A stretch of 64,000 nt of DNA from Dysgonomonas sp. HDW5A (lineage in GTDB: Bacteria > Bacteroidota > Bacteroidia > Bacteroidales > Dysgonomonadaceae): the NCBI RefSeq assembly GCF_011299555.1, contig NZ_CP049857.1:1178001-1242000 (forward strand), written 5' to 3'. The notes under the pieces were generated by a model. The model saw only the letters and a program-made list of their open reading frames with translations, was not told the origin of the DNA and searched no databases. The first letter of the stretch is position 1. Every line of letters begins with the position of its first letter. The translations under genes and the position numbers were made by a program. Positions 37,598 through 60,287 of this stretch are shown here, one piece after another.

Positions 37598-37664
37598 TTT
37601 CATCTCTGAAATCAGGTGTTCTGTCTCATTTCTCAAAAACACTTCCAAATGCTTGATACTTTCG
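37598..37664 (+). promoter_or_regulatory. TTCTGTCTC-box promoter, site 1 (CPBP protease gene)
   Basis: Box TTCTGTCTC at 37619, AAAA about 16 nt later, and the -7 variant TACTTTCG at 37657, exactly 38 nt from the box start. A degenerate second box may begin 21 nt upstream. The predicted start is near 37671, 24 nt before the ATG. The -7 differs from TAnnTTTG at one position and no TTTG is at -33, as expected for an activator-dependent promoter. Confidence 0.7.
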
Positions 37665-37694
37665 TTGTAGAAACGAACTAAAATATCAAGCATA

Positions 37695-38522
37695 ATGAAA
37701 GCAAAGAATCCTATTCAACAATTCAATCGCCCTGTACTGTTTTATACTTTATCCACACTTATTCCCTGGAGCTTTTGGTTTGCAGCAGGCTACATAAGTC
37801 AGATCACTCCTTATCAGGATAAATTTCTTCAGATAGCAAGCCTGCTATCCTTTATCGGACTACTTACTCCCTTGGCTGTCGTATTTGCATTAACAGCCAA
37901 GCACACGAATATAAAAAGAGATATAACAACACGTCTTTTCAACTTTAGTGATATTAAGCCTGTCTACTTTCTGCTGACTTGTCTGATTATGCCTGTCAGT
38001 ATAATGATAGGACAAGCCATTTCCCTGTTATTTGGATATAGCTCAGACCAATTTATTATCACAGGAAACTTCACTTTCTCCTCCGGCATCTTCCCGGTAT
38101 GGTTCCTGCTAATAGTAGCCCCTGTTATAGAAGAATTAGCATGGCATTCCTATGGCACTGATTCTTTACGTAATAGGTTCAACCTGTTTAATGTCTGTCT
38201 TATTTTCGCCTTGTTCTGGGGAATCTGGCATATCCCCTTATCCACTATTCGTGATTACTATCAAAGCAATGTTGTGAATGACGGTCTTATCTATGGCTTG
38301 AATTTTCTGGTTAGCATTTTCCCGTTTGTTATACTTATGAACTGGCTCTATTACAAGACAAACAGAAATATCCTTATCGCTATTATCTTCCATATCACAG
38401 CAGGGCTTTTCAACGAGCTGTTCGCTCCACATCCCGATAGTAAAATCATCCAAACTATCCTTTTGATTGTATTGGCTAGCATAGTGGTCGTAAGGGATAA
38501 AGAAATGTTCTTCAAAAGATAA
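37695..38522 (+). CDS. CPBP-family intramembrane metalloprotease (Abi/CAAX type)
   Basis: The 275-residue protein has about seven to eight hydrophobic segments. The CPBP motifs are visible: VIEELAWHSYG (glutamate pair, about 151-152), FWGIWHIPL (His of motif 2) and FHITAGLFNE (His/Asn of motif 3). CPBP proteins cleave prenylated or secreted peptides in the membrane, and many serve in peptide maturation or immunity. It lies directly behind a TTCTGTCTC-box promoter shared with the kinase genes next door, so it is probably part of that signalling regulon. Confidence 0.88.
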   Translation: MKAKNPIQQFNRPVLFYTLSTLIPWSFWFAAGYISQITPYQDKFLQIASLLSFIGLLTPLAVVFALTAKHTNIKRDITTRLFNFSDIKPVYFLLTCLIMPVSIMIGQAISLLFGYSSDQFIITGNFTFSSGIFPVWFLLIVAPVIEELAWHSYGTDSLRNRFNLFNVCLIFALFWGIWHIPLSTIRDYYQSNVVNDGLIYGLNFLVSIFPFVILMNWLYYKTNRNILIAIIFHITAGLFNELFAPHPDSKIIQTILLIVLASIVVVRDKEMFFKR

Positions 38523-38619
38523 TCAGACCAGAATATCATATAACACTGAAAATGGCAACCTGAACTTTTATTCAATTACGACTAAGGGAAAAATAAAGTT
38601 TAATCTACAACAAAGCTGC

Positions 38620-38686
38620 TTCTGTCGCAAAAAAACGGCATTCTGTCTCATATTTCAAAAGCAAGCCTTTACAAGCAATACTTTTG
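38620..38686 (+). promoter_or_regulatory. TTCTGTCTC-box promoter, site 2 (kinase pair)
   Basis: Two direct boxes, TTCTGTCGCA at 38620 and TTCTGTCTCA at 38641, exactly 21 nt apart, and the -7 TACTTTTG at 38679, 38 nt after the second box. Start near 38693, with a leader of about 160 nt that contains a GGAGGTA/TACCTCT inverted repeat (about 38770-38808). Confidence 0.75.
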
Positions 38687-38850
38687 CATCGTCAACTAAA
38701 TGGATAACTAAAAGAGGTAGAAAGTGGATAAGAAAGAAACGCCTGAAAAAGTATTATAGACTCTAAAAAGGAGGTAACTTCATTCTTCAACATACTATAC
38801 CTCTTAGATTTTTAATGTAAATTTGACAGCACACTACCAATAACTAGCAT

Positions 38851-39894
38851 ATGATAAAATCGAGACTGTATAATTTTTTTGTTGATCCTAAATACAGGAT
38901 ATGGAGACATATCCTGTTTATTCTTTCATTTGCAATAATATCCTATCGGCAGATTACTTATATCTTTCGGGATAATATTACCACTATAACAGATTACAGA
39001 CCTTTTCTTGTCTCCATCACCCTTATGGTATATCTATCGACATTGTATGTAAATATTTATTATTTAGTTCCCCGCTTTTTGTTGGGACAACGATATAGAA
39101 TTTATTTAGCAGGGTTCTTTTTTATCATATTTATTCAGATCGCATATCTTATTGGGATGGAACATATTGTACGCACCTTATTTGAGATGCCCTACAAAAT
39201 AACATCCTATACTCCGCTTGTATTTATTCAACTCATTCCTACTTCTACGATAAATATGATGTGTATAATGGGGATATCCGCCACATTATTATTTAAGCAT
39301 CAAATATTGGAAAACGAACGAATGAAGAAAATCGAAGAGGAATATATACAATCGCAATTAAACCGCTTAAAAGAACAGATTTCCCCGACTTTTCTATCAA
39401 ATATTCTGAACAGGACTTCGGAGTTAACTAAGACTGATTCGAATAAGGCATCCGATATGTTGATCAGGCTTGGACAATTACTAAGGTACCAATTGTATGA
39501 TTGCAACAGAGACAGAGTATTATTAAGTGCCGAAATAAATTTTATAAAGAACTACCTTGATTTGGAGCAAATATATTGCAATCAATTTGAATATGACTTT
39601 ACCTTCGACAATAATATCAAAGAACTATTACTTCCTCCTTTATTACTCATTCCTTTTATACAAAATGCTGCAAATAGAACAGAATCTATTGAAAAGCACG
39701 TGTGTTTACGTTTAAGTCTTAAAAGAATAGAAAACAGTTTGTTTTTTAGCTGTCAATCTACAAACAAAGCTCTATTGTCAGAAGTTCAACTTTTCGCTGT
39801 AAAAAAAAGGTTAAATTTAATGTATCCGGGCAACTATATTTTATCAATGGTCAAAGGCAAGACCGAACTCCAACTTAATTGTATTACCGAATAA
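38851..39894 (+). CDS. LytS/YehU-like membrane protein, degenerate histidine kinase
   Basis: The 347-residue protein has four membrane segments in residues 15-160, then a His_kinase (PF06580-type) region. The canonical QINPHFLFN is QISPTFLSN, so the phospho-acceptor His is Thr180. The N-box IQNA has Gln for Glu, and the Gly-rich ATP-lid motif GIGLxN is gone (LFAVKKRLNLMY). It should therefore be unable to autophosphorylate. Its stop codon is 2 nt before the ATG of an intact kinase, and I infer a pseudokinase partner. No response regulator is adjacent. Confidence 0.85.
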   Translation: MIKSRLYNFFVDPKYRIWRHILFILSFAIISYRQITYIFRDNITTITDYRPFLVSITLMVYLSTLYVNIYYLVPRFLLGQRYRIYLAGFFFIIFIQIAYLIGMEHIVRTLFEMPYKITSYTPLVFIQLIPTSTINMMCIMGISATLLFKHQILENERMKKIEEEYIQSQLNRLKEQISPTFLSNILNRTSELTKTDSNKASDMLIRLGQLLRYQLYDCNRDRVLLSAEINFIKNYLDLEQIYCNQFEYDFTFDNNIKELLLPPLLLIPFIQNAANRTESIEKHVCLRLSLKRIENSLFFSCQSTNKALLSEVQLFAVKKRLNLMYPGNYILSMVKGKTELQLNCITE

Positions 39895-39896
39895 TA

Positions 39897-40967
39897 ATGG
39901 ATCAAATAAAGAAAAAAACAATATTATATTATTTGAATGATAAAAAGTATCATGTTCACAGACATTTATTGTTGCAATTATTTGCATTGATATATGCCCT
40001 TGATGTTTTTTGTCCTGTACCGGGGCAGTTACCTCTGTCGGTAGGCCGATTCGTTACATTTTTAGGCTTCTATCTTATCCTCAATTTGATAATCTATCCG
40101 AATGCTTACATTTTTGTACCACGCTATCTGGTAAAAAAGAAGCTATTGAAATATATATTGTCAATAGTTGCGATCATACTTGTTTGCTTATTTATTATTG
40201 CAACCATTGTGGTTTTATTTGAAAAGCCAAATACGGGGATTTTAAAACAGGTTCCATCCCGTAATTTCTTTTTAATAATGTTAATAATATTACCTTCCGG
40301 AGTGACTTTTGGTTTACAGTGCGCCGGAGTGGCGGCATTTACGGTTTTCAGAAAGTGGACAGAAGAGAATCAACGGACTAATGATCTGAAAGCAGCTACT
40401 CTGCAGACAGAACTTACATTTCTGAAAAGCCAGATAAATCCGCACTTCCTATTCAATATTATAAATAATGCCAATATACTGGTGGATGATGAGCCTGAGA
40501 TGGCTTCCAGTATGCTGACTAAGTTGGATGACCTGCTAAAATACCAGCTAGAAGATAGCATGAAAGAGAAAGTACGATTAACGGATGATATCCGTTTTTT
40601 AACTGATTATCTGGATTTGGAAAAAGTAAGACGTGACCATTTTGAATTTGAAATTCAGACAAGAGGAAATATAGACAATATATCTATTGCTCCTTTATTG
40701 TTTATTCCATTTGTAGAAAACGCTGTTAAGCACAATTCGGATAGTAGCAGGACTTCATATGTAAACCTGTCATTCGCCATAGAAAATAACACGTTGGCCT
40801 TTATATGCGAGAATTCTAAGCCTATAAAGCCGATTCAACAGAAAACAGGCGGAATCGGATTGAGTAATATATCCCGTAGATTGAACCTACTTTATGACAA
40901 CAGCTACTCATTGGAGAGAAAGGAAACAGAACAAGTGTACATGGCAAAATTAACACTCAAACTATAA
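39897..40967 (+). CDS. LytS/YehU-family sensor histidine kinase
   Basis: Start chosen at the ATG at 39897, giving 356 residues; an upstream in-frame ATG at 39879 would overlap the preceding gene. Four membrane helices (about 20-150) are followed by an intact kinase core: QINPHFLFN with His183, LFIPFVENAVKHNS (N-box) and GGIGLSNISRRLNLLY (G-box). It is expected to phosphorylate a LytTR-type response regulator encoded elsewhere. It lies directly after, and probably pairs with, the degenerate homologue. Confidence 0.9.
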   Translation: MDQIKKKTILYYLNDKKYHVHRHLLLQLFALIYALDVFCPVPGQLPLSVGRFVTFLGFYLILNLIIYPNAYIFVPRYLVKKKLLKYILSIVAIILVCLFIIATIVVLFEKPNTGILKQVPSRNFFLIMLIILPSGVTFGLQCAGVAAFTVFRKWTEENQRTNDLKAATLQTELTFLKSQINPHFLFNIINNANILVDDEPEMASSMLTKLDDLLKYQLEDSMKEKVRLTDDIRFLTDYLDLEKVRRDHFEFEIQTRGNIDNISIAPLLFIPFVENAVKHNSDSSRTSYVNLSFAIENNTLAFICENSKPIKPIQQKTGGIGLSNISRRLNLLYDNSYSLERKETEQVYMAKLTLKL

Positions 40968-41029
40968 TACTATTCTTACGTTGAAAAGTAACTGAATAAA
41001 ACAAATTTTACTCCCATTACAATAACAAC

Positions 41030-41061
41030 AAAGGTTGCCTCATATTTCAAAGGCAACCTTT
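41030..41061. terminator. hairpin between convergent genes
   Basis: Perfect 11-bp stem (41030-41040 with 41051-41061, 10-nt loop) with weak T-tails on both strands. It lies between the kinase gene and the OmpA-family gene. Confidence 0.65.
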
Positions 41062-41091
41062 ATTATGTGAAAGTCTTTATATCTAAGAAAA

Positions 41092-41967
41092 TTAATTTAT
41101 ACCAGCAGAACTTGTAGGAGCCGGAGCCTGTTCGATCAATTCCATAAACTGATCGAGTTTTGGAGTAATAATTATCTCTGTCCGGCGGTTGCGGGCTTTT
41201 CCTTCGGCAGTACTATTGCTTACAATCGGATTATACTCTCCACGTCCGGCAGCAGTCAGACGTTTTGGATCAACTCCATAGGTATTTTGCAGAGCCTGAA
41301 CAACTGACGATCCACGTAACGCACTCAAGTCCCAGTTGTTACGGATATTAGGACGAGAAATGGCATCCGGGTCTGTATTTCCTTCTACCAATACATCATA
41401 ATCTTTATAATCTAAGATAATTTTAGCGATTTTACTGAGTGTTTGACCTGCTTTATCGCTTATTTCGAAACTACCCGAACGATACAGCATATTATCAGCC
41501 AAAGAAATATACACAACGCCTTTCAGCACTTGAATATCGAGATCCTGCATTTCTTCGCGAGTAAGTGAACGGGTAAGATTATTCACCATGACAAGATTCA
41601 AAGAATCTGATCTATTTTTAGCTTGTACCAAATGTTGAATAAAGCGGTTGGAAGCATTGATTTCATCTACCAATTTTCCAATATTGGCATTACCTTGAGA
41701 GTTATGCTGAAGGCTCTTATTCAGAGAACCCTGCATTTCGGCTAAAGCGGCACGCAGCTCGTCATTATTTTTTCGGGCATCGCCCAAAGTTTCTTCAAGG
41801 CTCGCCACTCGAGTACGATTCTCCGTCAGCTGCAATTGGCTTCCCTGATAGTCTGCCTGCAATTGCTTGTAATCGGTCTCTAAATTTCTAAATTTCCCCT
41901 TGCTTACACACCCTGTAAACATTATACTTGCTGTTAATATCAGCAGCGACCAAAATGAATATTTCAT
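41092..41967 (-). CDS. OmpA-family peptidoglycan-binding lipoprotein
   Basis: The 291-residue protein has a lipoprotein signal with lipobox TGC (Cys20), a coiled-coil stretch (about 26-125) and a C-terminal OmpA_C domain (about 150-275) with VLVEGNTDPDA, NWDLSALRGSSVVQAL, RLTAAGRGEYNPIVSN and KARNRRTEIIITP. The GNTD and N-R-R positions that bind peptidoglycan are present. It anchors the outer membrane to the cell wall, and the coiled coil probably spans the periplasm. Monocistronic. Confidence 0.92.
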   Translation of the reverse strand: MKYSFWSLLILTASIMFTGCVSKGKFRNLETDYKQLQADYQGSQLQLTENRTRVASLEETLGDARKNNDELRAALAEMQGSLNKSLQHNSQGNANIGKLVDEINASNRFIQHLVQAKNRSDSLNLVMVNNLTRSLTREEMQDLDIQVLKGVVYISLADNMLYRSGSFEISDKAGQTLSKIAKIILDYKDYDVLVEGNTDPDAISRPNIRNNWDLSALRGSSVVQALQNTYGVDPKRLTAAGRGEYNPIVSNSTAEGKARNRRTEIIITPKLDQFMELIEQAPAPTSSAGIN

Positions 41968-42182
41968 AGCCTGAATCTTATTATATTAATTTAATATGCA
42001 ATTAATATTTATAACAATGATATTCGCTAATAGTTTGGGACTGTATCGTTTATATTGATTAAAAATAGATTTGAAAGGAATACGTAATACCTTATAGTCT
42101 ATAAGTGATCTTCGTAGAAGAGTTTTCGGAATCGATAAAGTTCGCTGATTTATCTTCATCTAAACAATAATAAAGCTTTTCA
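41968..42182. other. non-coding stretch upstream of the OmpA-family gene
   Basis: A/T-rich, no ORF or repeat seen. It must hold the minus-strand promoter of the OmpA-family gene but I see no clear TAnnTTTG there. Confidence 0.4.
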
Positions 42183-42212
42183 AAAGGGGGAATGAACTAT
42201 CACTCCCCCTTT
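42183..42212 (-). terminator. terminator of the 89-residue hypothetical gene
   Basis: 12-bp stem with one mismatch (42183-42194 with 42201-42212, 6-nt loop), followed on the minus strand by TTTT. Confidence 0.75.
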
Positions 42213-42275
42213 CTCTCCTTATTTTACAAACCGTTAGATTAAGGTTAATAAACACAGATTGGTTGTAATGGCTAA

Positions 42276-42545
42276 CTATAATTGATCTATATCATCGGTT
42301 TGAAAAAAGGCATCTATACAGACATCGTCCCGAATGAGACACGAGAGTGTAGCTTCCGAAAAACGTATTTCGACTATCAAATCGGGATTCTTCTTTACAG
42401 GTTTTATGATGTGGTATGTCTTGTGAATTTTCAAGATCTCACCAAAGGATAGCCCTATACATTGGGAGGCTGCAACAGGTATAGATGCAACTGAACAACT
42501 ATTGGCAATAGATGGAGCAGGGAATTTTACGGTGTTTGTTGACAT
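42276..42545 (-). CDS. hypothetical protein, about 89 aa
   Basis: I start at the Met at 42545 (MSTNTVKFPAPSIANS); an in-frame Met 33 nt further up is possible. The protein is small and mixed in character with no signal or membrane helix. It has a cysteine-containing VASIPVAASQCIGLSF segment and a C-terminal IRDDVCIDAFFQTDDIDQL. Not recognised. If the adjacent rod-shaped RNA is made on the minus strand, this gene lies just downstream of it and may share the transcript. A terminator follows. Confidence 0.5.
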   Translation of the reverse strand: MSTNTVKFPAPSIANSCSVASIPVAASQCIGLSFGEILKIHKTYHIIKPVKKNPDLIVEIRFSEATLSCLIRDDVCIDAFFQTDDIDQL

Positions 42546-42621
42546 AGTGTATCGTTTATTGTGCTTGGATTCGTCCAAAACAAGCCTTATACTAATAAAA
42601 GAAGCGGGAGGACATTAACCT

Positions 42622-42754
42622 ATTCGCCAAAAAGGGAGTCGAAGCCCCGAAGCACAAACAGGAAACGCCTCCCGCCCTATATCAAATAAGACGGGATGGG
42701 CGTTCTACTGTTTCCAAATGCTTCTTTTATTTCGACTTTTTTTTGGCACAGAAT
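42622..42754. ncRNA. long rod-shaped structured RNA candidate (6S-like architecture)
   Basis: Seven nested helices in one rod: 42622-42625/42751-42754, 42626-42633/42740-42747, 42638-42643/42731-42736, 42649-42654/42719-42724, 42656-42661/42708-42713, 42664-42669/42699-42704 and 42671-42674/42692-42695. Together these make 40 base pairs around a 17-nt loop, with only small internal loops. The core is GC-rich in an A/T-rich gap. Rod shape and size recall 6S RNA, but no sequence signature proves it. Either strand can fold; a minus-strand -7 box at 42809-42816 favours minus. Confidence 0.6.
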
Positions 42755-42808
42755 CAGCTAAACGCTTAATACCTTATATTATACTATGTCTTGTCATTTC
42801 TGACAAGG

Positions 42809-42816
42809 CAAAGATA
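42809..42816 (-). promoter_or_regulatory. -7 box possibly driving the rod RNA
   Basis: Minus-strand TATCTTTG, about 55 nt before the rod. A 7-bp hairpin with a GAAA loop on the minus strand (42790-42796 with 42801-42807) lies at the predicted start. Confidence 0.45.
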
Positions 42817-43075
42817 TAGATATTCTTTTATTTTTTGTTTTTCATTCATATTAATCAGTTTGAAATGTGCTATTACAAAAATAAGTTCTTCTCGTGCAAT
42901 AAAATATTTTACTGCACGATATTATATTTGTTGATTACCAAGCGATTTCTTACTTTTGAAAAAGAAAAATCAAGAATGCGATAAATTATTATCTGAGTTG
43001 GGGTAAAATATCTTAATTTAGCACTAAACTTGACGAATACACATTTGTTTAATCAACTGATAACGATATATAAAT

Positions 43076-43522
43076 ATGGAAGCTGTTGCCGAAAAAAAGA
43101 AAAAAGTTCATCACGGGCGAAATATACGAATCGTCAGAACCAGTCAGAATGTTACTCAGGAAGACTTGGCTTTCAGGCTAAATCTATCACAAAGCAAAGT
43201 ATCTGCTTTGGAATTGGATGAGGTAATCGAAGATGCCGTTCTTGATAAATTTGCAATTGCTCTTAATGTTCCGGTTAATTTCCTGAAAAATTTTGAGCCG
43301 GAAGAAGTTATAAAATCATTTACAGTAACTGATAATACATTCAACAATACGCCATCGGAGAACTCGAAAGAAGTTATCACACAAGGCATTATTGAAGAAC
43401 AAAATAACACTTACACTTATCCGATTGATAAAGTTTCCGAACTATACGAAAGGCTTTTAAAAGAAAAGGATAAGCAAATAGATGAACTGAAAAAAGAGGT
43501 TGAGAAATTAAGCAAGAAGTAA
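43076..43522 (+). CDS. XRE-family HTH transcriptional regulator
   Basis: The 148-residue protein has a basic N-terminus (EKKKKVHHG), a Cro/CI-type HTH (about 15-72: GRNIRIVRTSQNVTQEDLAF, then LSQSKVSALELDEVIEDAVL and FAIALNVPVNFL), a low-complexity linker and a C-terminal coiled coil from about residue 118 (VSELYERLLKEKDKQIDELK). The coiled coil probably dimerises it. It is followed after 1 nt by the VOC gene, so the two form an operon. Target unknown. Confidence 0.88.
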   Translation: MEAVAEKKKKVHHGRNIRIVRTSQNVTQEDLAFRLNLSQSKVSALELDEVIEDAVLDKFAIALNVPVNFLKNFEPEEVIKSFTVTDNTFNNTPSENSKEVITQGIIEEQNNTYTYPIDKVSELYERLLKEKDKQIDELKKEVEKLSKK

Positions 43523-43523
43523 T

Positions 43524-43958
43524 ATGAACAGAATAAATATTACAACACTAGGCGTTAAAGACGTTGCTAAAGCAGCCGAGTTTTACAAAAAGCTAGGATT
43601 CATCACCCCAAGTACCGAAGAAAATCCATCGATTGTATTTTTCAATAACGGAGGTACAAAGCTTGCCCTTTATCCGCTCGAAGAACTTGCAAAAGATATC
43701 AACGAATCTGATCCTCCTAAAATATCAACAGGCTTTAACGGGTTTACATTGGCCTATAATGCCAAAACAAAAGAAGAGGTCGATTTAGTTTTCACCCAAA
43801 TAGAAGAATTGGGAGGAAAAATAATAAAAAGCCCCAAGCCGACTTTCTGGGGAGGGTATGGCGGTTATTTCCAGGACTTAGACGGATATTATTGGGAAGT
43901 GGCTTATGCCGACAGTTGGATATTTGATGATAATGACATGTTGGTCATTACAGAATAA
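43524..43958 (+). CDS. VOC-family (glyoxalase/extradiol dioxygenase fold) protein
   Basis: The 144-residue protein has paired beta-alpha-beta-beta-beta units: INITTLGVKDVAKAAEFYKK at the start, and GGYGGYFQDLDGYYWEVAY near residue 120, the common VOC C-terminal motif with the metal-ligand Glu. The first metal His of true glyoxalases is not apparent, so the reaction is unknown. Cotranscribed with the upstream XRE regulator and closed by a terminator. Confidence 0.85.
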   Translation: MNRINITTLGVKDVAKAAEFYKKLGFITPSTEENPSIVFFNNGGTKLALYPLEELAKDINESDPPKISTGFNGFTLAYNAKTKEEVDLVFTQIEELGGKIIKSPKPTFWGGYGGYFQDLDGYYWEVAYADSWIFDDNDMLVITE

Positions 43959-43963
43959 ATAGC

Positions 43964-43996
43964 AAAAAAACTTCCGGAAGACTTCGGGAGTTTTTT
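43964..43996 (+). terminator. terminator of the XRE-VOC operon
   Basis: Imperfect stem of about 14 bp (A-run then CTTCCGGAAG, paired with CTTCGGGAG then a T-run). Confidence 0.8.
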
Positions 43997-44055
43997 GTTT
44001 TAGACGATTTTCGTTCTTTTCATCCCATTACAGACGCATATCCAAAAACAAGCTG

Positions 44056-44063
44056 TATGTTTG
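44056..44063 (+). promoter_or_regulatory. -7 box of the VIT gene
   Basis: TATGTTTG matches TAnnTTTG, about 30 nt before the ATG. No -33 match. Confidence 0.45.
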
Positions 44064-44092
44064 CCTCTATAACGATATAAAACGAATACACA

Positions 44093-44782
44093 ATGCATCA
44101 CGAAAACCATTATACAAACCGTACCAATTGGCTAAGAGCAGCTGTTTTGGGAGCAAATGACGGAATCTTATCTACAACCAGCCTTGTTATAGGAGTGGCG
44201 GCAGCCGATGCTTCGAGACATTCGATCACTTTGGCGGCTTTAGCCGGACTGGTGGCTGGAGCTTGCTCGATGGCGGCAGGAGAATATGTTTCGGTAAGTT
44301 CACAAACCGATGTTGAAACGGCAGATCTTAAGAGAGAAAAAAAAGAACTCGAAGACAACCACCAACAGGAACTTGAAGAATTGGCAGGTATTTATGAAAA
44401 AAGAGGACTCGACGAAGATCTGGCCATGAAGGTTGCCCAACAACTGATGGATCATAATGCACTGGAGGCTCATGCACATGATGAACTGGGCATCAACGAC
44501 ATGACCAAGCCCAACCCCTTACAAGCTGCAATGGCATCGGCGGCTTCTTTTATTTCGGGAGGAATACTTCCTTTACTTGTGGCTGTTTTGGCTCCCCTAA
44601 AAGGAATGGTTTTCTATCAGTATGCATTTGCCATTTTATTTTTGGCAATATCGGGAACAATGGCGGCAAAAATGGGAGGTTCGAATATTTCTAAGGCCGT
44701 TGCCAGAATATGCTTCTGGGGAACTGTTGCCATGTTTATCACCGCTGCGGTAGGATATATATTCGGAGTGAAAACTTCGTAA
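44093..44782 (+). CDS. VIT1/CCC1-family transporter
   Basis: The 229-residue protein starts with a short His-containing N-terminus and then VLGANDGILSTTSLVIGVAA (first helix), SMAAGEYVSVSSQTDVE at the end of helix 2, a charged cytoplasmic helical domain (about 80-140, rich in Glu and His and probably metal-binding) and three more helices. Members export or sequester Fe2+ or Mn2+. With mntH elsewhere in the same accessory stretch, metal handling recurs, but the two are not linked. Confidence 0.88.
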   Translation: MHHENHYTNRTNWLRAAVLGANDGILSTTSLVIGVAAADASRHSITLAALAGLVAGACSMAAGEYVSVSSQTDVETADLKREKKELEDNHQQELEELAGIYEKRGLDEDLAMKVAQQLMDHNALEAHAHDELGINDMTKPNPLQAAMASAASFISGGILPLLVAVLAPLKGMVFYQYAFAILFLAISGTMAAKMGGSNISKAVARICFWGTVAMFITAAVGYIFGVKTS

Positions 44783-44830
44783 TAAGTACTTATAACGAAA
44801 CTAGCAAATATAAAACCGATCAGGATATAT

Positions 44831-45658: not shown

Positions 45659-45753
45659 TAATAAAAGAACAGTTATTTAAACTACTGAATAAAATAAATA
45701 ATAGGATATGAATATTGACATTAAAATAAGAGAAAATAAGAATTACAAAAAAT

Positions 45754-49067: not shown

Positions 49068-49134
49068 TTTGGTATACAAACAGAGGCGTTCTGTCTCTTA
49101 TCTAAAATCTGCTTATTGATAGGATATATCTTCG
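49068..49134 (+). promoter_or_regulatory. TTCTGTCTC-box promoter, site 3 (outer-membrane barrel gene)
   Basis: TTCTGTCTC at 49089, AAAA 14 nt later and -7 variant TATCTTCG at 49127, exactly 38 nt from the box start. A degenerate upstream box (TTTGGTATACAAA) starts 21 nt earlier. The transcript would start near 49141. Confidence 0.7.
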
Positions 49135-49179: not shown

Positions 49180-49809
49180 ATGAAAAAGCTAGTAGTAGTA
49201 TTAATAATCATTCTTTGTTTCATCGCAACAGCTAGTGCACAAGTCCGCTTCGGAGTTAAAGCAGGAGGAAATCTGTCGTTCCTGTACACAAGTGGAAGTA
49301 ATCAAGGTATAAATGCCGATCAATATAATGGAAGATTCGGATATCATTTTGGAGGTATGCTGGAATACTCATTGTCGGAAATGTTCTCTATTCAACCGGA
49401 GTTAATGTATCTGAATCACGGAGCAAACCTGAAGAAAGAAAACTCTTTCGGAATGAAAGACGGACAGATAACATTAAACACCTTACAATTACCGATCAAC
49501 CTGAAAGCCAAATTCAATCTGGGTCAATCCGATTCTAAACTATTTGTATATGGAGGTCCTTACGTCGGTTACAATATGTATGGAAAGGTAGCAGGCAAAA
49601 TAGATGGTGCAAAGGTAGATAATAAACTTTATGCAAAAGATTCGAACATGAAGCGTTTTGATTATGGTTTTGGAATCGGCGTAGGTATTGAGATGAAAAA
49701 ATTCGTATTGACCTTAGGTAATCAATACGGAGCGAATGACATCAGCGGATCTGAAAAAGGAAAGATGAGAGCGGGTCACGTAAGCCTATCGGCAGGATAT
49801 TTTTTCTGA
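49180..49809 (+). CDS. outer-membrane beta-barrel protein (PorT/OMP_b-brl_2 type)
   Basis: The 209-residue protein has a signal peptide (MKKLVVVLIIILCFIATASA) followed by QVRFGVKAGGNLSFL, the usual start of the Bacteroidota small barrel family. It has alternating strands, FSIQPELMYLNHGA, KLFVYGGPYVGYN, FGIGVGIEMKKF and a terminal aromatic HVSLSAGYFF that fits Bam recognition. Function unknown; such barrels are often stress- or envelope-regulated. It has a TTCTGTCTC-box promoter in common with the kinase genes. Confidence 0.88.
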   Translation: MKKLVVVLIIILCFIATASAQVRFGVKAGGNLSFLYTSGSNQGINADQYNGRFGYHFGGMLEYSLSEMFSIQPELMYLNHGANLKKENSFGMKDGQITLNTLQLPINLKAKFNLGQSDSKLFVYGGPYVGYNMYGKVAGKIDGAKVDNKLYAKDSNMKRFDYGFGIGVGIEMKKFVLTLGNQYGANDISGSEKGKMRAGHVSLSAGYFF

Positions 49810-52903: not shown

Positions 52904-54587
52904 ATTTATTTATGTAATCGGGATTTTGAGTAAGATAAGGATTAACCGTAAACTCATCCTGAGGGATAGGAAACAGGTTGTACTTATCGTTAACGTCTTT
53001 ACCGATATAGTTGCCTACTGTTCCATCGCTTCCTTTCCAGTCCCAATTATAGCCCTTGGTAAACTTGCCAAAGCGAATAAGGTCGGTACGTCTTACTAGT
53101 TCAGTGTGCAATTCGCGTGCACGTTCATCCAAGATAAAGTCGAGCGTCAATTGACTGTCGTCTATTCTTCCTGAAGCTCCATTACCATAAGCACCTGACA
53201 GGTAAGCCCTGTCTCTAATTTCGTTCACATATCCCAATGCCTGCGTGCGACTACCACTTGCTCCTCTAAGTATAGCTTCGGCGGCCATCAAGTAAGCATC
53301 TGCTGTACGGAACACAGGGTAATCAATCGAACTGTAAGTTGTACCTCCATCTGCCAGCGTTTTTCTATCTTTGGTCATATTACGCCATTTTAGACAAGCA
53401 TAGCCGTTTTCGAATTTAGTTGCTTGAAAATTACTTCCAACAATCCATGTCTCCTTCGTATGTTTAGGAGTATAGAACTGAGCCCGTTTATCTTTTTTAT
53501 TATCTCCCCAAGGATCGTTGATATTAAAGGTTTGATCAGCCGGACTAAACTTGTCAACCAATTGTGTTTTCACACGGGCATTGCCCCACGAATTCGAAAG
53601 ACCTATGTAGACATTCATATCTCCATTGCTCAGGGCTTTAAGGATAAAATTTGTACCTGCACTATTTATTGTATTAACACCGTCTTGTGGCAGATTCCAT
53701 ATAATTTCTTTACATGCATTGTTGTCCGCAAGGAAAATATGACGATAGTCGGAAGCCAGTGGATAAGTATTACTCTCAATTATCTTTTTTGAATATTGAT
53801 ATGCTTTTTCGTACTCGTTCTTTCCTACCCATGCTTCGGCATTCAGGTATACACGGGATAATAGGAACCATGCTGCAACCTGATCTACACGTCCGTATTG
53901 ATTCGTACCAGCCGGTTTCATCTCTGTAGCCAGAGCTTCTGTTTCTGCAACAACATAGTTATAAATATTTTCACGGGTAACCTGATTGGGGATAGTACCT
54001 ATTACCATCGTTTCATCTACAAAGGGGGCAGATCCATACAGATCACAAATCATGCTGTAGCAATATGCACGAATAAAACGTGCTTCGGTTCGATAGTAAG
54101 GCATCTCATCCTTTAGTTCATCGTATAATCCTCTATTTTTAAGATTATTGTCAGTCGATTCACGTAGAAATTCATTGCAATAATTAATAGTCATATACAG
54201 ACGATAGTATGAATAACTGATAATCTTTGTTGATTGATTCCAATTCATAAACAAAAGATCCCAACTTCCTTGTGAACTTCCCGAATGAAGAACAATTTCA
54301 TCTGTTGAACACTCTTGTAAATAAAATAATGATCGTGTATATCCGCTATATCCGGTATCCATACCTCCAACATCACCATCTTTATCGGGTCCATCCTGAC
54401 CGTTTAGTATTAACGAACCGTAGCACTTGGCTAATACTCCGCGATAACCGTCTGCTGTTGTATACACATTGGTATTTATAAGTTTCTTATCGTTAAGTGG
54501 TTCTGTATCGAGATCACCAAGACAGGACGTGAATAGCATTCCTAAAAGAACAGCTGCCCATATATATTTTATTGATTGTATTTTCAT
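52902..54587 (-). CDS. SusD/RagB-family outer-membrane glycan/nutrient-binding lipoprotein
   Basis: The 561-residue protein has a lipoprotein signal with lipobox TSC (Cys22, MLFTSCLGDLDTEPL), TPR-like helices in the N-terminal half (YYRTEARFIRAYCYSMI, VYLNAEAWVG) and the SusD C-terminal region with PVFRTADAYLMAAEAILRGA, YVNEIRDRAYL and LDFILDERARELHTE. It forms a lid over the SusC barrel at the cell surface. The substrate cannot be read from sequence; the phosphatase downstream suggests an organic phosphate. Confidence 0.93.
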   Translation of the reverse strand: MKIQSIKYIWAAVLLGMLFTSCLGDLDTEPLNDKKLINTNVYTTADGYRGVLAKCYGSLILNGQDGPDKDGDVGGMDTGYSGYTRSLFYLQECSTDEIVLHSGSSQGSWDLLFMNWNQSTKIISYSYYRLYMTINYCNEFLRESTDNNLKNRGLYDELKDEMPYYRTEARFIRAYCYSMICDLYGSAPFVDETMVIGTIPNQVTRENIYNYVVAETEALATEMKPAGTNQYGRVDQVAAWFLLSRVYLNAEAWVGKNEYEKAYQYSKKIIESNTYPLASDYRHIFLADNNACKEIIWNLPQDGVNTINSAGTNFILKALSNGDMNVYIGLSNSWGNARVKTQLVDKFSPADQTFNINDPWGDNKKDKRAQFYTPKHTKETWIVGSNFQATKFENGYACLKWRNMTKDRKTLADGGTTYSSIDYPVFRTADAYLMAAEAILRGASGSRTQALGYVNEIRDRAYLSGAYGNGASGRIDDSQLTLDFILDERARELHTELVRRTDLIRFGKFTKGYNWDWKGSDGTVGNYIGKDVNDKYNLFPIPQDEFTVNPYLTQNPDYINK

Positions 54588-54715
54588 AAATGATTCCTCC
54601 GATTATTAAATAAAATAATTAATGACTTGTTTTGCAGGGATGGACCTATATGTCTTTCTATATCGGCGAACATATAGGCTCCCCCTACATCAAAATATAA
54701 AGTAGGTTTAAGGTT

Positions 54716-57691
54716 TTAAAAGTTTAGATTCAGTGACAGGGTATAAGTTCTGGGACGTTGGTATGTATTATTATCAATACCATTGTATATCTCAGGGTCT
54801 GCTCCCGAATAGTTGGTTATTATAGCTATATTCTGTGCACTGAATGCCATACGCAAAGAGCTTGATGTATTCCATAATTTAGGAAAGGTATACCCCAGTG
54901 TTATATTATCGAACTTAAAGAATGCACCGCTTTCGAGGAAATAATCAGAGAAGTATTGTTCTTTAGCGAAACCTCTTTCCAATGCTACCCGTGATATATT
55001 ACCGGACATTCCTTCGCTATAAACGCTGGCTAAAGATTGCTTGGCTTGTTGATAGTTGAAGACGTAATTACCAAAGCTACCGTGTCCGTTTATCCCGAAA
55101 TCCCATTTCTTATATGTCAAGTGAGTAGATAATCCATAGTAATAAGGTGTTCTTGAACTCCTGCCTGTTACATATTTGTTATCATCACTTTGAATAGTAG
55201 TAATCGAACCGTCTTTTGCTATATATTTCCCTTCCAACGGTTTTCCATTCTCATCGTATGCTTGTTTAAGCAAAAAGAATGTATTTGGAGTTTCACCTAC
55301 TTTATGAATCTGAAGATCGTTTCTGCTTACACTTCCGGTTTTCACATAGCTGGTTTCTGTATCAATCGTATTCAACTTGGTAATCTTAGATTTTCCATAA
55401 GTGAAGTTTCCACTGATAGTCCACTCCCAGTCTTTCGTTTTTACAGGTATAGCACTTACTGCAAATTCGAATCCCTGCCCTTCCATGTCGCCGATATTTG
55501 TTTCGAGCTTGTTTGTAAAATTACTTCCTGCTGGGACATAAATATCGTTCAACAGATTTTTGGTATATCGTTTATAAACATCTATACTACCATAAATTCG
55601 GTTATTAAGAAATCCGTAATCAAGCCCGGCATTATAGGTACTGGTTGTTTCCCATTTTATATTCGGATCATATCCGTTTGGTCGGTACATATACAACCAC
55701 TCATCTCCAAATGGATATCTGGCTGCATCAGATGATATCGTATAGAGTGGTAAATAAGGATGGTATCCACCGATATCCTGCTGCCCCGTTTGCCCGTAAC
55801 TTAAACGAACTTTCAGATCGGATAAAGGTTTGATATCACGAATGAATTTTTCCTCAGTCAAACGATAACCCAGTGCCACAGATGGAAAATATCCCCAACG
55901 ATTATCAGGTGAAAAGCGAGAAGATGCATCGGCACGCAATGTAGCTGTCACCAATAGCTTTTGATCGAACGAATAGTTGAAACGACCAAAGAAAGAAAGG
56001 AGATATAAAAGGTCTTCATCAGGTATCGAAGTGTCAACTACATCTTTTACGAGGTTTCTGGGGTTGGTACTGTACCAAAAACGTTGCCATTCATACCCCG
56101 CCATTGCGTTAATATTGTGCTTAGATCCTAAATCTTTGATATAGTTGGCATAGGTAGAAATTATATAGTTCGTGTTTTTATTGTCCTCCGAATGGAATTG
56201 CCCTCTACCATCACTTCTGTTCGAAACATACATTAAAGGAGCTAAATCGGGAGTTGTTTCTTCTTGCTTATTACGACGTATATCATAACCTAGATTCATA
56301 TTCAAATGAAGGTCTTCAAAGCCGTGAATTTTATAATCAACCGCTAGGTTACCTAATGTACGGTTTATAGTATGCAGCTTTTTAGTAAGTTCTAGTTCGG
56401 CCACAGGGTTAGTGGCAGCCAAGCTTCTAGGCTTTCCGGAATCATCCATCCAAACATAATACCCAAGTCCTACATCACCGGGATAGCTTTGATGGACAGG
56501 GCGGGTTGGATCGAAAGAAATAGCACTGCCAATAGCACCAGTCGATACCGGGTGGCTTCGCTCGATACTTCCCTTTACATTAATATCAACAGAAAGGTGT
56601 TTATCAAAGAATTTAGGAGATAAACCAAACCCTCCGTTAAAACGTTTGTAATTATTAGACTTTAGGACACCGTCTTGACTTAAGTATCCTACTGATACCC
56701 TGTACGGTATTTGTTTTGCAGTACCTGTTACCGAAAGGTTATGCTCATTACCAAAGGCTGTTCTGTAGATTTCTTTTTGCCAATCGGTCGAAGCTGCTCC
56801 GAGCTTAAAGCTGGTTTCGGGTACATTAATAGTTCCGTTTGTATATATTTCACGGTATTCATCAGCCGATAAAACATCATAATAGTCCGGTATTTTGCTT
56901 ACCGTAAAATTGGCGCTGTAATTTACCTGCGGTTTGGAGCTTCCTCCCAGACTTCCTTTTTTAGTCGTAATAATGATTACTCCATTAGAGGCACGCGACC
57001 CATAGATGGCAGTAGCAGAGGCATCCTTAAGTACAGTAAATGTTTCTATATCATTCGGGTTAATAAAACTGATCGACGTATTATTTACAGGTACACCATC
57101 GATCACAATTAAAGGGTCGTTATCTGCCGACAAGGATGCTCCCATACGAATGCGTATGGTTCCACCACTACCGGGAGCGCCATCACCGGGTACTATATTT
57201 ACACCTGCCACACGTCCTATCAAGGCATCTTGAGCTGTAATTTGAAGTCCTTTATTCAGTTCGTCAGGCTTTACTGATGTTAATGCTCCGGTAGCATCAC
57301 CTTTTCTCACTTGCCCGTAACCGATAACTACTACTTCACTCAATAATTCGGAGTCTTCATCTAAATTTATAGACAAGTTAGTTTTATTAGCAACAGGTAC
57401 TTCTTTTGTTTTATATCCTAGGAATGAAACAACTAACGTAGCATTAGCTGATGCAGACAATTGGAATTTTCCATCGTAATCGGTGACCGTTCCTGTAGAA
57501 CCCGACTTAACTTTTACACTTGCTCCAATAACTGTTTCTCCGGATTTGCTATCTGTTACAACTCCTGAAACTTGGATTGTTCCTGAATTTTGGGCTGACA
57601 GACTCGTGAACGAAAATAGACCTACTAATAATAGTAAGAGTATCTCCCTGGCTCCTTTTCTGTTTTTTAAAATTAACTTTTCTTTCATCAT
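54716..57691 (-). CDS. SusC/RagA-family TonB-dependent transporter
   Basis: The 991-residue protein has a signal peptide ending LSAQN, a CarboxypepD_reg-like domain (about 38-115, SGVVTDSKSGETVIGASVKV) with the TonB-box-like region after it (ELLSEVVVIGYGQVRKGDAT), a plug (about 130-245, RVAGVNIVPGDGAPGSGGTIR and SRASNGVIIITTKKG) and a 22-strand barrel ending YTLSLNLNF. It imports the SusD-bound ligand using TonB energy. It is directly upstream of susD, and a regulator gene lies behind it. Confidence 0.95.
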   Translation of the reverse strand: MMKEKLILKNRKGAREILLLLLVGLFSFTSLSAQNSGTIQVSGVVTDSKSGETVIGASVKVKSGSTGTVTDYDGKFQLSASANATLVVSFLGYKTKEVPVANKTNLSINLDEDSELLSEVVVIGYGQVRKGDATGALTSVKPDELNKGLQITAQDALIGRVAGVNIVPGDGAPGSGGTIRIRMGASLSADNDPLIVIDGVPVNNTSISFINPNDIETFTVLKDASATAIYGSRASNGVIIITTKKGSLGGSSKPQVNYSANFTVSKIPDYYDVLSADEYREIYTNGTINVPETSFKLGAASTDWQKEIYRTAFGNEHNLSVTGTAKQIPYRVSVGYLSQDGVLKSNNYKRFNGGFGLSPKFFDKHLSVDINVKGSIERSHPVSTGAIGSAISFDPTRPVHQSYPGDVGLGYYVWMDDSGKPRSLAATNPVAELELTKKLHTINRTLGNLAVDYKIHGFEDLHLNMNLGYDIRRNKQEETTPDLAPLMYVSNRSDGRGQFHSEDNKNTNYIISTYANYIKDLGSKHNINAMAGYEWQRFWYSTNPRNLVKDVVDTSIPDEDLLYLLSFFGRFNYSFDQKLLVTATLRADASSRFSPDNRWGYFPSVALGYRLTEEKFIRDIKPLSDLKVRLSYGQTGQQDIGGYHPYLPLYTISSDAARYPFGDEWLYMYRPNGYDPNIKWETTSTYNAGLDYGFLNNRIYGSIDVYKRYTKNLLNDIYVPAGSNFTNKLETNIGDMEGQGFEFAVSAIPVKTKDWEWTISGNFTYGKSKITKLNTIDTETSYVKTGSVSRNDLQIHKVGETPNTFFLLKQAYDENGKPLEGKYIAKDGSITTIQSDDNKYVTGRSSRTPYYYGLSTHLTYKKWDFGINGHGSFGNYVFNYQQAKQSLASVYSEGMSGNISRVALERGFAKEQYFSDYFLESGAFFKFDNITLGYTFPKLWNTSSSLRMAFSAQNIAIITNYSGADPEIYNGIDNNTYQRPRTYTLSLNLNF

Positions 57692-57978
57692 GGTTAGATT
57701 GATAGATTTCTGGTTATTTGTTTTCCTTAATAATCTCCCTCCTATTATTGAACTGAAAATTTCTTCTTTTCAGAAAGAATCTTGTTTTTAAGGTTGGTGG
57801 GTTAACAAATACAAATCTATTACTGATCTAGTTGCATTGTATCGCATAGTAGATAGTATAAGTAGATAAAAAACAAATACACACAGACTCAATCGACTAT
57901 AAAATAAGCGATTGAGACATTGTTAAAATTCAAACAGAGTAGATTAAGTTTGAGGTATAAGTATACTATTATTTGTCA
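57692..57978 (-). promoter_or_regulatory. susC upstream region
   Basis: Contains a minus-strand -7 candidate TAGATTTG (57812-57819), without a -33 match, predicting a leader of about 115 nt. An 8-bp inverted repeat CTCAATCG/CGATTGAG (57888-57895 with 57909-57916, 13-nt gap) lies some 70 nt further up and could be a regulator site. Confidence 0.45.
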
Positions 57979-59598
57979 TTATTTACCTATTTGCTGAATA
58001 GCAACAGCAAATTCGTCTTTAGAAACGATTAATTTATTATGCACTTTGAGTCGATAATTATATACAGTCTGAGGAGAATAATGCAAGAAACTCGCAATCT
58101 TACTGCTATCGGTTATACCGAGACGTACTAATGCAAAGACGCGAAGTTCGGGCGTAAGAATATCGCCGGTCTTAGGGACAATTTTTTCATTTTCAATCAG
58201 AAGGGCATTGAATTCTTCTACAAAATTGGGGTATATGTTTAAGAATATTGCATCGAAATTACGAAAGAATTCTTTTAACTCGTCAGAAACCAGAGAGGTT
58301 GAACTGGTTATTTTAGCTGCCTCTGCTATTTGCCCCGATTTTAACTTCCGGTTTATATCTATTCTGTAGGCCTCCATTTTGTCGATATAAGTTGAACAGA
58401 GATTGAAAACAGAGCCGATATATTCTTCTTTTACCAAATTAGATTCGGAGAGCTTTTTATTTAAATCGTTCAGATCTCCATTCATCCGCTTTACATCCTC
58501 ATACATTGTGTTGATTGCTTTTCGAGCCAGTGACAGCTTTTTCAGTTGTTTATATATGCATATTACACTGATTACTAAAACAACAGCAAGAATTGATATC
58601 AGGAATAAATACTTCTCCAGTTTTTCTTTCTCCTGCTTCACTTTCTGGTCGTAAGCTGCAACAATAATAGGTAAGGTTTGCGAAATCTCAAGTGTTCGGA
58701 AACGGGCTCTACAGAAAATAGCATCTTCCATCGAACATTTAATATAGGTATATGCTCTATCAAGATCACCTTCCTTGTACAATAATATGGCTAGTTTGCG
58801 TAAAGCGATATAGCCTTTCACCGCTTTTTGCTGATCTGCAATTGCTGATATTATCAGGTACTTTTTCTCTTGTTCATGATCTCCCATTTTCCGGTATACC
58901 TCCGATAATCCGTATGCTATAGTTCCAACCAGCGACTGATCATTGCCATATTTGGCATAACATTCAAGCATAAGAGCAAGCGCCTCTTCGTTTTTTCCTT
59001 TTTCGACAAGCTTTCCGTTCATTACAAGTTGATATCCCAGCGAGGCCGGGTCATTAACCGATAATAAGGAGTCTTTATATTGGCTTAGCCTACTTTCGTA
59101 TTGCTTCTGCTCTTTCTGAGCAAAAGAGTTTTCAGACATTAGCGTATATATGGAATGATAGAGATGAAAATAATATGCTTTTTGCTTTTCGTCCAGCTTA
59201 TGACCATCTACCTGATCTATAATATCCAAAGATTCTTTGTACATACCCATTACACCGAGAATCTCCGCTATATTCATATTGGCCGTATTGATATAGTCTT
59301 CGCGGTGGAGCTTCTCCGCAATATCAAGCCTTTCATTAGCTATCCATAGTGCTGAGTCCATATTATAATTGCGATACTCGCGAAGTAGTTTATGATAAAA
59401 ATTAAAACGTTGATCAAGGTCTGCTATTTTATTCAACTCCAGCTTTAAACTATCTATCCGAAACTCTCTTTTTTGTTCATAAAACGGACGTTGCTTTATC
59501 GTAACATCCAATACTTTCAACAATGAGTCTATTTCGTTTACGGCAAATACCGATATATTCAAAAAGAGAAAAAATAAAAGCAGGATATTCTTTTTCAT
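57979..59598 (-). CDS. SusR-like membrane transcriptional regulator (DUF6377 type)
   Basis: The 539-residue protein has a signal peptide, a periplasmic TPR-like helical domain (about 20-320), one membrane helix (about 329-347, YLFLISILAVVLVISVICIY), a coiled coil and a C-terminal cytoplasmic domain with a LuxR-like HTH (LGITDSSKIASFLHYSPQTV, then YNYRLKVHNKL). This is the layout of SusR and relatives, which sense a ligand in the periplasm and activate the adjacent SusCD operon. It lies immediately upstream of susC on the same strand. Confidence 0.88.
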   Translation of the reverse strand: MKKNILLLFFLFLNISVFAVNEIDSLLKVLDVTIKQRPFYEQKREFRIDSLKLELNKIADLDQRFNFYHKLLREYRNYNMDSALWIANERLDIAEKLHREDYINTANMNIAEILGVMGMYKESLDIIDQVDGHKLDEKQKAYYFHLYHSIYTLMSENSFAQKEQKQYESRLSQYKDSLLSVNDPASLGYQLVMNGKLVEKGKNEEALALMLECYAKYGNDQSLVGTIAYGLSEVYRKMGDHEQEKKYLIISAIADQQKAVKGYIALRKLAILLYKEGDLDRAYTYIKCSMEDAIFCRARFRTLEISQTLPIIVAAYDQKVKQEKEKLEKYLFLISILAVVLVISVICIYKQLKKLSLARKAINTMYEDVKRMNGDLNDLNKKLSESNLVKEEYIGSVFNLCSTYIDKMEAYRIDINRKLKSGQIAEAAKITSSTSLVSDELKEFFRNFDAIFLNIYPNFVEEFNALLIENEKIVPKTGDILTPELRVFALVRLGITDSSKIASFLHYSPQTVYNYRLKVHNKLIVSKDEFAVAIQQIGK

Positions 59599-59641
59599 CT
59601 ATAGTAGTTTAAAGTGTTTGACCTATTTATAGCCTGTTCAA

Positions 59642-60163
59642 TTATAATAACTTTTCATATAACTTAAACCATTTCAGATGGTCATAATTCAGTCCCAGAT
59701 CAACAGTCCCGATATATTTATATCCTAGTTTCTCATACAAAGCTATAGCGGGTATATTATGTACGGAAACATCGAGTCGTATTGACTTTATTTTCTGTTC
59801 AACAGCATATTCCTGAGCAAACTGCATTAATTCACAGGCAACTTGTCTCTGCATAAACTTCGGATTAACAACCAGTGTATGTATTACAATAATATCTTTA
59901 TAATCGTCCTTTATCCCCCAAACAACTTCATCATATGCCCTTTCGGGCTCATGATTTAAGATAACGCTTCCGGCAATAACCCCATCCACTCTCAGCACAA
60001 ATAGATTCTCAGCCTTAATTCCCGCAACAGCAGTTTCTCTGACCGGATAGATACCCTTAATCCAACCCGGATAATTGATGCCTGCTTCCAAATAATCATT
60101 CAGATCATCATAGAGAACTTCCAGCTCATCAATATCATATATAGTTCCTTTTTCAATAAACAT
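59642..60163 (-). CDS. GNAT-family N-acetyltransferase
   Basis: I start at the Met at 60163 (173 residues). The Met 27 nt upstream would lie on a -7 promoter box (60190-60197). The fold is visible: IHTLVVNPKFMQRQVACELM with the acetyl-CoA loop (here QRQVA instead of the usual Q/RxxGxG/A) and LDVSVHNIPAIALYEKLGYK at the C-terminus. It is cytoplasmic; acceptor unknown. Divergent from the TonB-receptor operon. Confidence 0.85.
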   Translation of the reverse strand: MFIEKGTIYDIDELEVLYDDLNDYLEAGINYPGWIKGIYPVRETAVAGIKAENLFVLRVDGVIAGSVILNHEPERAYDEVVWGIKDDYKDIIVIHTLVVNPKFMQRQVACELMQFAQEYAVEQKIKSIRLDVSVHNIPAIALYEKLGYKYIGTVDLGLNYDHLKWFKLYEKLL

Positions 60164-60189
60164 AAGGCTAATTTCAATAAAGAAAAACA

Positions 60190-60197
60190 AATATACT
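60190..60197 (-). promoter_or_regulatory. -7 box of the GNAT gene
   Basis: Minus-strand TATATTTG, perfect match. The predicted start near 60183 supports translation from 60163. Confidence 0.5.
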
Positions 60198-60220
60198 CTA
60201 TGTATACAAGAAACTTCGTT

Positions 60221-60287
60221 CTGTCTACAAAAAATAGCCCTCTGTATATTCTAAAAATATTGCTCTTAATCAAATACTACTTTCGTA
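60221..60287 (+). promoter_or_regulatory. TTCTGTCTC-box promoter, site 4 (HU-like/TonB receptor/kinase operon)
   Basis: Box TTCTGTCTAC at 60221, second box CTCTGTATAT at 60242 (21 nt later) and -7 variant TACTTTCG at 60280, 38 nt from the second box. The 21/38 layout equals that of site 2. The start near 60294 makes the longer upstream reading frame from 60200 unlikely and supports ATG 60314. Confidence 0.7.

Follow-up and report, generated by a model that had tools for sequence, protein, structure and literature searches.

We analysed a window of 64,000 nucleotides (nt), genome positions 1178001-1242000 of the 4,298,355-base genome of Dysgonomonas sp. HDW5A, in which four promoter sites share an arrangement of short direct repeats, here termed boxes, upstream of a sigma-A-type -7 element (Table 1). 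Site 1 precedes the gene for a CPBP membrane protease, site 2 a pair of kinase-type genes (HKa and HKb), site 3 the gene for a small outer-membrane beta-barrel, and site 4 an operon encoding, in order, an HU-like protein of 60 amino acids, an outer-membrane receptor, the pseudokinase HK1, the kinase HK2 and P0001, a response regulator with REC and LytTR domains. This set of targets agrees with a preliminary description of the DNA, which had attributed the sites to one LytTR-type activator. That description also spoke of four unlinked loci, which we rejected on the genome coordinates: all four sites cluster within 22.7 kb and lie less than 28 kb from one LytTR gene.

Table 1. Boxes, -7 elements and genes of the four sites (window positions unless marked as genome positions)
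Feature	Position	Strand	Remarks
Site 1 upstream box TTTCATCTCTGAA	37598..37610	+	degenerate
Site 1 proximal box TTCTGTCTCATTT	37619..37631	+	
Site 1 -7 element TACTTTCG	37657..37664	+	38 nt from box start
CPBP / Rce1-like membrane protease	37695..38522	+	site 1 target; PF02517 E 1.4e-13; NF041656 below cut-off
Site 2 third (distal) box TTTAATCTACAAC	38599..38611	+	
Site 2 middle box TTCTGTCGCAAAA	38620..38632	+	
Site 2 proximal box TTCTGTCTCATAT	38641..38653	+	
Site 2 -7 element TACTTTTG	38679..38686	+	
HKa, PF06580 kinase-like pseudokinase	38851..39894	+	phospho-acceptor His and G box absent, N box changed
HKb, PF06580 histidine kinase	39879..40967	+	His, N and G motifs kept; no adjacent LytTR gene
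Site 3 third (distal) box TCTAATCTACAAA	49047..49059	+	
Site 3 middle box TTTGGTATACAAA	49068..49080	+	
Site 3 proximal box TTCTGTCTCTTAT	49089..49101	+	
Site 3 -7 element TATCTTCG	49127..49134	+	
Small outer-membrane beta-barrel	49180..49809	+	site 3 target; PF13568 E 2.3e-25
Site 4 third (distal) box CTATGTATACAAG	60198..60210	+	conserved in L036
Site 4 middle box TTCTGTCTACAAA	60219..60231	+	
Site 4 proximal box CTCTGTATATTCT	60240..60252	+	
Site 4 -7 element TACTTTCG	60278..60285	+	
HU-like 60-aa protein	60314..60496	+	PF00216 E 1.4e-4, 22.5 bits versus cut-off 22.4
Outer-membrane receptor	60519..62861	+	CarboxypepD_reg-like domain and TonB-dependent-transporter-like barrel
HK1 pseudokinase	62911..63972	+	INPQFLFN replacing INPHFLFN; no G box
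HK2 kinase	genome 1241972-1243087		past window end; keeps phospho-acceptor His and G box
P0001 REC-LytTR response regulator	genome 1243167-1243877		last operon gene, 1.2 kb beyond window end

Sequence reading and a scan both placed the -7 elements exactly 38 nt downstream of the start of the box TTCTGTCT at 37619, 38641 and 49089, as first described. Site 4 has the same geometry, with TTCTGTCT at 60219, CTCTGTAT at 60240 and the -7 element TACTTTCG at 60278; the box coordinates originally quoted for it, 60221 and 60242, were 2 nt off. A second box begins 21 nt upstream of each proximal box (a degenerate one at 37598, TTCTGTCG at 38620 and TTTGGTATACAAA at 49068 for sites 1 to 3), and the 38-nt and 21-nt distances are exact at four of four sites. 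Another 21 nt upstream, a third box lies at 38599, 49047 and 60198 in sites 2, 3 and 4. No -33 TTTG occurs within the 30 nt preceding any of the four -7 elements, as the preliminary description had also stated.

Counting both strands, the window contains 11 copies of the exact box TTCTGTCT; three of them have TAnnTTnG at +38, compared to 0.054 per spacing on average across 92 spacings. The binomial probability of this count is 1.1e-6 for one spacing and about 1e-4 after 92 spacings, a calculation that ignores the free choice of motif, for which the cross-species tests below do allow; the spacing is indeed hard to explain by chance, as had been proposed. When each site was omitted in turn from a matrix of the four, it scored above all window positions except the three training sites. 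With the A1 matrix shuffled by column in 200 permutations, the top window score reached at most 21.7 and the fourth at most 4.0, versus real scores of 46.1 and 37.9.

We then scanned the genome with R1, a profile derived from 18 LytTR-operon promoters of other species, scoring 150 of 3867 first-look candidates. R1 ranked the window sites first to fourth genome-wide (E of 3.4e-8, 5.5e-8, 3.4e-6 and 9.5e-5, all rough owing to a shortened calibration; next best 0.065), a ranking that is by itself partly circular, as a matrix of the four window sites had served to find the 18 training sites. The outcome that the preliminary description had named as damaging to its proposal, a scan returning mostly coding or random positions, did not occur, the four sites being the top matches among the candidates scored. 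On account of the window-derived training sites, a de novo search without window input was run: a Gibbs search (best of 24 runs) of the 330-nt stretches preceding 23 LytTR operons in other species, selected solely by where the genes lie (23 of 25 loci, L051 and L052 being left out). The motif obtained has the same 69-nt layout, with 16 of the 23 loci scoring above 15 and two scoring 9-12, one of the two being L062, where its match lies at a different place from that of R1. The best four matches of this motif in the window are the four sites, with scores of 32.3-42.8, compared to 11.9 for the next best.

Across species the box consensus is TTTCGTCTACAAA, the window form being TTCTGTCT. Spacing spectra were taken over the upstream parts of 80 named loci, using single boxes from the window only and a threshold of 6. 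Box-to-box distances peak at 21 (35 pairs; mean of 3.26 per spacing), with 42 second, and the opposite strand shows a smaller peak at 21 (11 pairs; mean of 2.6). Of 95 box pairs picked blind to the -7 element, 24 are followed by one at 38 (mean of 0.59 per spacing), and the second most frequent distance is 59, the sum of 38 and 21. The secondary peaks at 42 and 59 fit the third box. At -42 this box scores above 0 in 9 of 10 target sites outside the window and is less regular in 19 operon promoters (mean score -3.7 at -42 versus -14.5 overall; above 6 in 4 of 19); no clear fourth box was found in the window and target sites scored. Most listed sites keep the register of 38, with 37 or 39 in a few (L072, L077 and L173). 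Footprint alignments of the window with G026 and L036 show boxes, -7 element and leader kept inside diverged flanks.

R1 surveys covered 101 genomes of the family, with 50 candidates scored in each, and 149 genomes of the order including our own, with 34 scored in each. Among the candidates scored they yielded 68 R1 sites, 63 from the family survey and five from the order survey outside the own genome. For 30 of the 68 listed sites, a P0001-type LytTR gene follows downstream on the same strand at less than 9 kb (24 of 62 once training promoters are removed, six of the 30 being the training promoters of L036, L037, L040, L042, L069 and L093), and 36 of the sites have one within 30 kb; the LytTR genes used for these counts are those on contigs or in genomes having R1 sites. 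Among 61 genomes to which both queries were applied, R1 matched in 13 of the 16 that have the close LytTR clade and in 6 of the 45 that lack it (Fisher 1.6e-6), and in 8 of 11 versus 6 of 45 when the own genome and the four training-promoter genomes are set aside (Fisher 2.4e-4), both tests being uncorrected for kinship. The accompanying chance fraction supposes four LytTR genes in each genome. In three of the six clade-less genomes (G010, G036 and G060), the match lies about 4 kb upstream of a LytTR gene of 41-44% identity. In contigs of Dysgonomonas, Bacteroides, Parabacteroides and Butyricimonas, sites adjoin P0001-like LytTR genes; in those of Spirosoma, Chitinophaga and Flavobacterium, the neighbours are simpler kinase-LytTR genes, from which the sites often face away. 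Some labels share an isolate: L040, L046 and G068; L042, L044 and G051; and L080 and G071.

Target genes recur behind the sites as well. CPBP relatives with 68-72% identity follow a site in G015, in the L040/G068 isolate and in G045, where a receptor 64% identical to that of the window, also with a site, adjoins the CPBP gene. Barrel relatives follow a site in G026 (80% identity), G051 (65%) and G068 (62%), the last holding a second barrel, 27% identical, that also has a site (L046). The distance from site to start codon is 29-48 nt in the CPBP and barrel relatives. Loci L182, L183, L184, L185, L186, L189 and L191, having been read on the wrong strand, do not enter the target comparison.

We aligned 22 kinase pairs, two of them from the own genome and the others from 20 of the 25 named loci (all but L047, L051, L052, L063 and L093). 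In every pair the first PF06580 kinase has neither a phospho-acceptor His nor a G box, and the second kinase keeps both. The N box of the first kinase is altered, its Asn persisting in some members, HKa and HK1 included. The term pseudokinase, which the preliminary description had used for HK1, is therefore correct and extends to the first kinase of the pair at 38.9 kb. A LytTR gene had been expected near the kinases at 38.9-41.0 kb; the next gene is an OmpA gene on the opposite strand. HKa and HKb are closest to the kinase pair of a receptor operon in G015 (58% and 62% identity), whose order is CPBP, barrel, receptor, kinase, kinase, LytTR; in the protein comparison with other loci, the HK2 query was used without its N-terminus. 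Judged from identity and gene order, the CPBP-HKa-HKb block looks like the G015 operon minus barrel, receptor and regulator. The conserved loss of His in first kinases opens the role of pseudokinases in two-component signalling to direct testing.

P0001, encoded at the end of the site 4 operon, has a PF00072 domain (E 1e-20) and a PF04397 domain (E 8.3e-18). Its nearest named relatives are from Dysgonomonas (94% and 93% identity), and its best NCBIfam match is BtsR, below the cut-off. By the lengths of open reading frames (ORFs), the order receptor, kinase, kinase, LytTR is found in about 15 of the 25 loci, Bacteroides and Butyricimonas included, with one split receptor ORF and one split kinase ORF among them; the other loci have only kinases and regulator. 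The modelled receptor (mean pLDDT, the predicted local distance difference test score, of 63.6; pTM, the predicted template modelling score, of 0.61) comprises a helix resembling an N-terminal signal peptide, a small beta domain (carboxypeptidase-regulatory-like), a low-confidence plug region and a barrel. Foldseek aligned it with TonB-dependent transporters (FptA, E 5.6e-20), and the receptor is accordingly predicted to be an outer-membrane barrel of the transporter fold. The HU-like protein matches only positions 1-36 of the 90 of HU/IHF, short of a full-length HU fold and its beta arms.

This truncated HU-like domain forms a stand-alone protein of 59-65 amino acids in the window, L036, L037, L040, L081 and L160, and seems to be fused ahead of the membrane segment of the receptor in Bacteroides (L049, L050, L054 and L055); Pfam was run on the window and L160 copies. 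Downstream of the P0001 gene, a kinase-like match at about 1.0 kb and a gene with a REC and a weak LytTR match at about 1.8 kb (L170 3912-5325, genome about 1244911-1246324) make up a second two-component pair. Elsewhere in the own genome, three weaker full-length R1 matches (E of 0.065, 1.0 and 1.5) precede other LytTR genes by 7, 4 and 1.5 kb, and we rejected a single model for all LytTR operons of this genome. Two of the three have credible box pairs, at L171 8977-9043 and L173 6988-7055, the latter with its -7 element at 39 instead of 38; they precede an efflux-like operon (a secreted protein and a TolC-like gene) and a LiaF-like gene. The remaining match, which lies in L172 ahead of a TetR-like gene, seems doubtful. 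In L094, L098 and L099 (Flavobacterium, Spirosoma and Chitinophaga), at about 8.8 kb on the minus strand, a site precedes a gene divergent from the kinase-LytTR genes.

Further sites precede genes of other kinds. Proteins with an RteC domain, a kind known from conjugative-transposon control, have a site in G015 (assigned by Pfam) and in G057 and L080 (41.5% identical to that of G015); the sites concerned are at L164 16738-16796, at L080 10733-10798 and in L222. G062 has 12 sites among the 50 candidates scored, suggesting a much larger regulon. Of the 11 we examined (L204-L214), nine precede genes with signal- or lipoprotein-like starts as judged by eye, one precedes a kinase gene and one had no ORF found behind it.

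Taken together, the boxes are very probably operator sites of P0001. The earlier LytTR interpretation is supported, and the assignment is made through linkage, the REC-LytTR regulator being encoded in the operon whose promoter is site 4. An autoregulated LytTR regulon fed by the receptor and the kinase pairs is, we believe with good confidence, the best explanation of the four sites. In this mechanism, the TonB-dependent-transporter-like receptor in the outer membrane and a membrane pseudokinase/kinase pair would sense a signal, and the active kinase would phosphorylate P0001. The phosphorylated regulator may then cooperatively fill the array of two or three boxes, where 21 nt, equal to two helical turns, would place bound protein on one face of the DNA, and could recruit RNA polymerase to promoters without a -33 element. 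We infer that P0001 activates rather than represses, with positive feedback on its own operon and with increased expression of the CPBP protease, the small barrel and the second pseudokinase/kinase pair. Cooperative filling and polymerase recruitment seem the likeliest course because autoactivation by LytTR proteins with a 21-bp period, and the AgrA system, are known. TAnnTTTG spans -12 to -5 in F. psychrophilum, according to an excerpt of PMC9723704; if the same holds here, the boxes would start near -50, -71 and -92. A -33 element could not be identified in Flavobacterium johnsoniae in the excerpted text of PMC7366714, so the absence of a -33 TTTG argues only weakly for dependence on an activator, and we rejected it as proof.

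Several observations weigh against this reading, as does the missing kinship correction of the Fisher tests. Within the window, site 1 has no third box. The de novo motif scored below 0 in 5 of 23 operons (L041, L043, L044, L046 and L080), many best matches of the window-site matrix on the 80 named loci were weak and lay outside operon promoters, and the CPBP site in L040 is weak (R1 E 0.053). R1 matched at E<=0.01 in 13 of the 62 named loci outside the training set, and in the order survey 4 of 149 genomes, our own included, had a match at E<=5e-4. Three of the 16 close-clade genomes (G005, G015 and G042) showed no R1 match in the survey; G015 does hold a 27.6-bit site, which was missed with 50 or 34 candidates scored per genome, so the survey has false negatives. 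Of the listed R1 sites, 32 of 68 are not within 30 kb of any listed LytTR gene. Finally, the letters of TTTCGTCTACAAA differ from LytTR repeats of the ACCxCTTAx type in the excerpted text of PMC6193735, the resemblance by eye being weak.

The boxes could instead be LytTR operators with a repressing or dual function in place of a class-II-like activating one, a view that we consider unlikely. It draws on the proximal and distal boxes lying near -50 and -92, positions that come from analogy; placement upstream of the core promoter with 21-nt phasing is, however, that of autoactivating LytTR promoters (PMC6193735, in excerpt), and AgrA sites likewise lie upstream of P2 and P3 (PMC4227749, in excerpt). 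Quite improbable, in our estimate, is that the boxes are operators of another protein binding direct repeats 21 nt apart (AraC-type or hybrid two-component), the LytTR gene being just another target. Tandem direct repeats with a period of about 21 bp serve AraC-type activators too, and the 32 sites distant from listed LytTR genes would suit such a regulator. Against it, no gene for a transcription regulator other than LytTR was identified in the site 4 operon, the truncated HU-like protein aside, sites adjoin LytTR genes in several genera (Dysgonomonas to Flavobacterium contigs), and R1 matches co-occur with the close LytTR clade. That the likeness is an artefact of chance or shared ancestry, from duplicated promoter DNA or selective reading, is already disfavoured and scarcely credible: the pattern was originally picked by eye, and sites 1 and 2 may share one ancestral locus because the CPBP-HKa-HKb block looks like a G015 operon from which some genes are missing, but most spacer and flank letters differ while boxes and -7 elements agree, the de novo search took in no window sequence, other genera show the same geometry with box letters of their own, and no equally strong matches appear at other spacings or with permuted columns.

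Beyond the autoregulated LytTR regulon in this genome, a wider proposal, which we hold tentatively and at slightly less than even chances, is a phylum-wide trans-envelope switch in which an operon of transporter-like receptor, obligate pseudokinase-kinase pair and REC-LytTR regulator would be switched on through a three-box operator with a 21-nt period and a 38-nt register. Kinase-pair copies whose regulator has been lost, such as that at 38851-40967, would be slaved to the surviving regulator through the kept operator, and several receptor/kinase inputs might converge on one LytTR protein. The predicted regulator, operator code and target list make up a testable regulon, usable in several Bacteroidota including gut Bacteroides, and genomes can be scanned by a simple rule, the fixed 21/21/38 geometry.

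The direct-repeat principle of LytTR regulators is known. In the open-licence PMC papers searched we found no description of the receptor/pseudokinase/kinase/LytTR operon, of a three-box array or of a 38-nt register in Bacteroidota, and no match for Dysgonomonas LytTR, CPBP with LytTR, His-less kinases or HU with a TonB receptor; the partial literature on HaeR of Porphyromonas gingivalis yielded no binding motif. The AlgR box of Pseudomonas aeruginosa, CCGTTCGTC, resembles the Bacteroides version of the box, GTTCGTCTC. In signalling of the FecA/FecIR type, an outer-membrane TonB-dependent receptor is encoded with its regulator, as in the window operon, but the partners there are an anti-sigma factor and an extracytoplasmic function (ECF) sigma factor, compared to a kinase pair and a response regulator here. 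To our knowledge, the AgrA system contains neither a pseudokinase nor an outer-membrane receptor, and BtsS/BtsR and YpdA/YpdB each have a single kinase, with no receptor, pseudokinase, CPBP or barrel targets. Those two Escherichia coli systems resemble the window in pairing a LytS-type kinase with a REC-LytTR regulator (PMC5552118, in excerpt). At P2/P3 of Staphylococcus aureus, AgrA is a LytTR activator with two direct repeats upstream of its own operon, as in the window; its promoter-proximal repeats are centred at about -60, and the proximal box here would start at about -50 (PMC4227749, in excerpt). Comparisons with HdrRM and BrsRM of Streptococcus mutans draw on the excerpted text of PMC6193735, where the Bacteroides examples are membrane LytTR proteins with 11-bp repeats 11 bp apart. 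HdrRM and BrsRM share with the window paired direct repeats of 21-bp period upstream of the core promoter (9-bp repeats with a 12-bp spacer) and are autoregulated by positive feedback (PMC6193735). Their LytTR protein is held by a membrane inhibitor (PMC6193735), whereas P0001 has a REC domain and is encoded with PF06580 kinases and a receptor, and the window sites further differ in often having three boxes, in the letters of the boxes and in a -7 element resembling TAnnTTTG.

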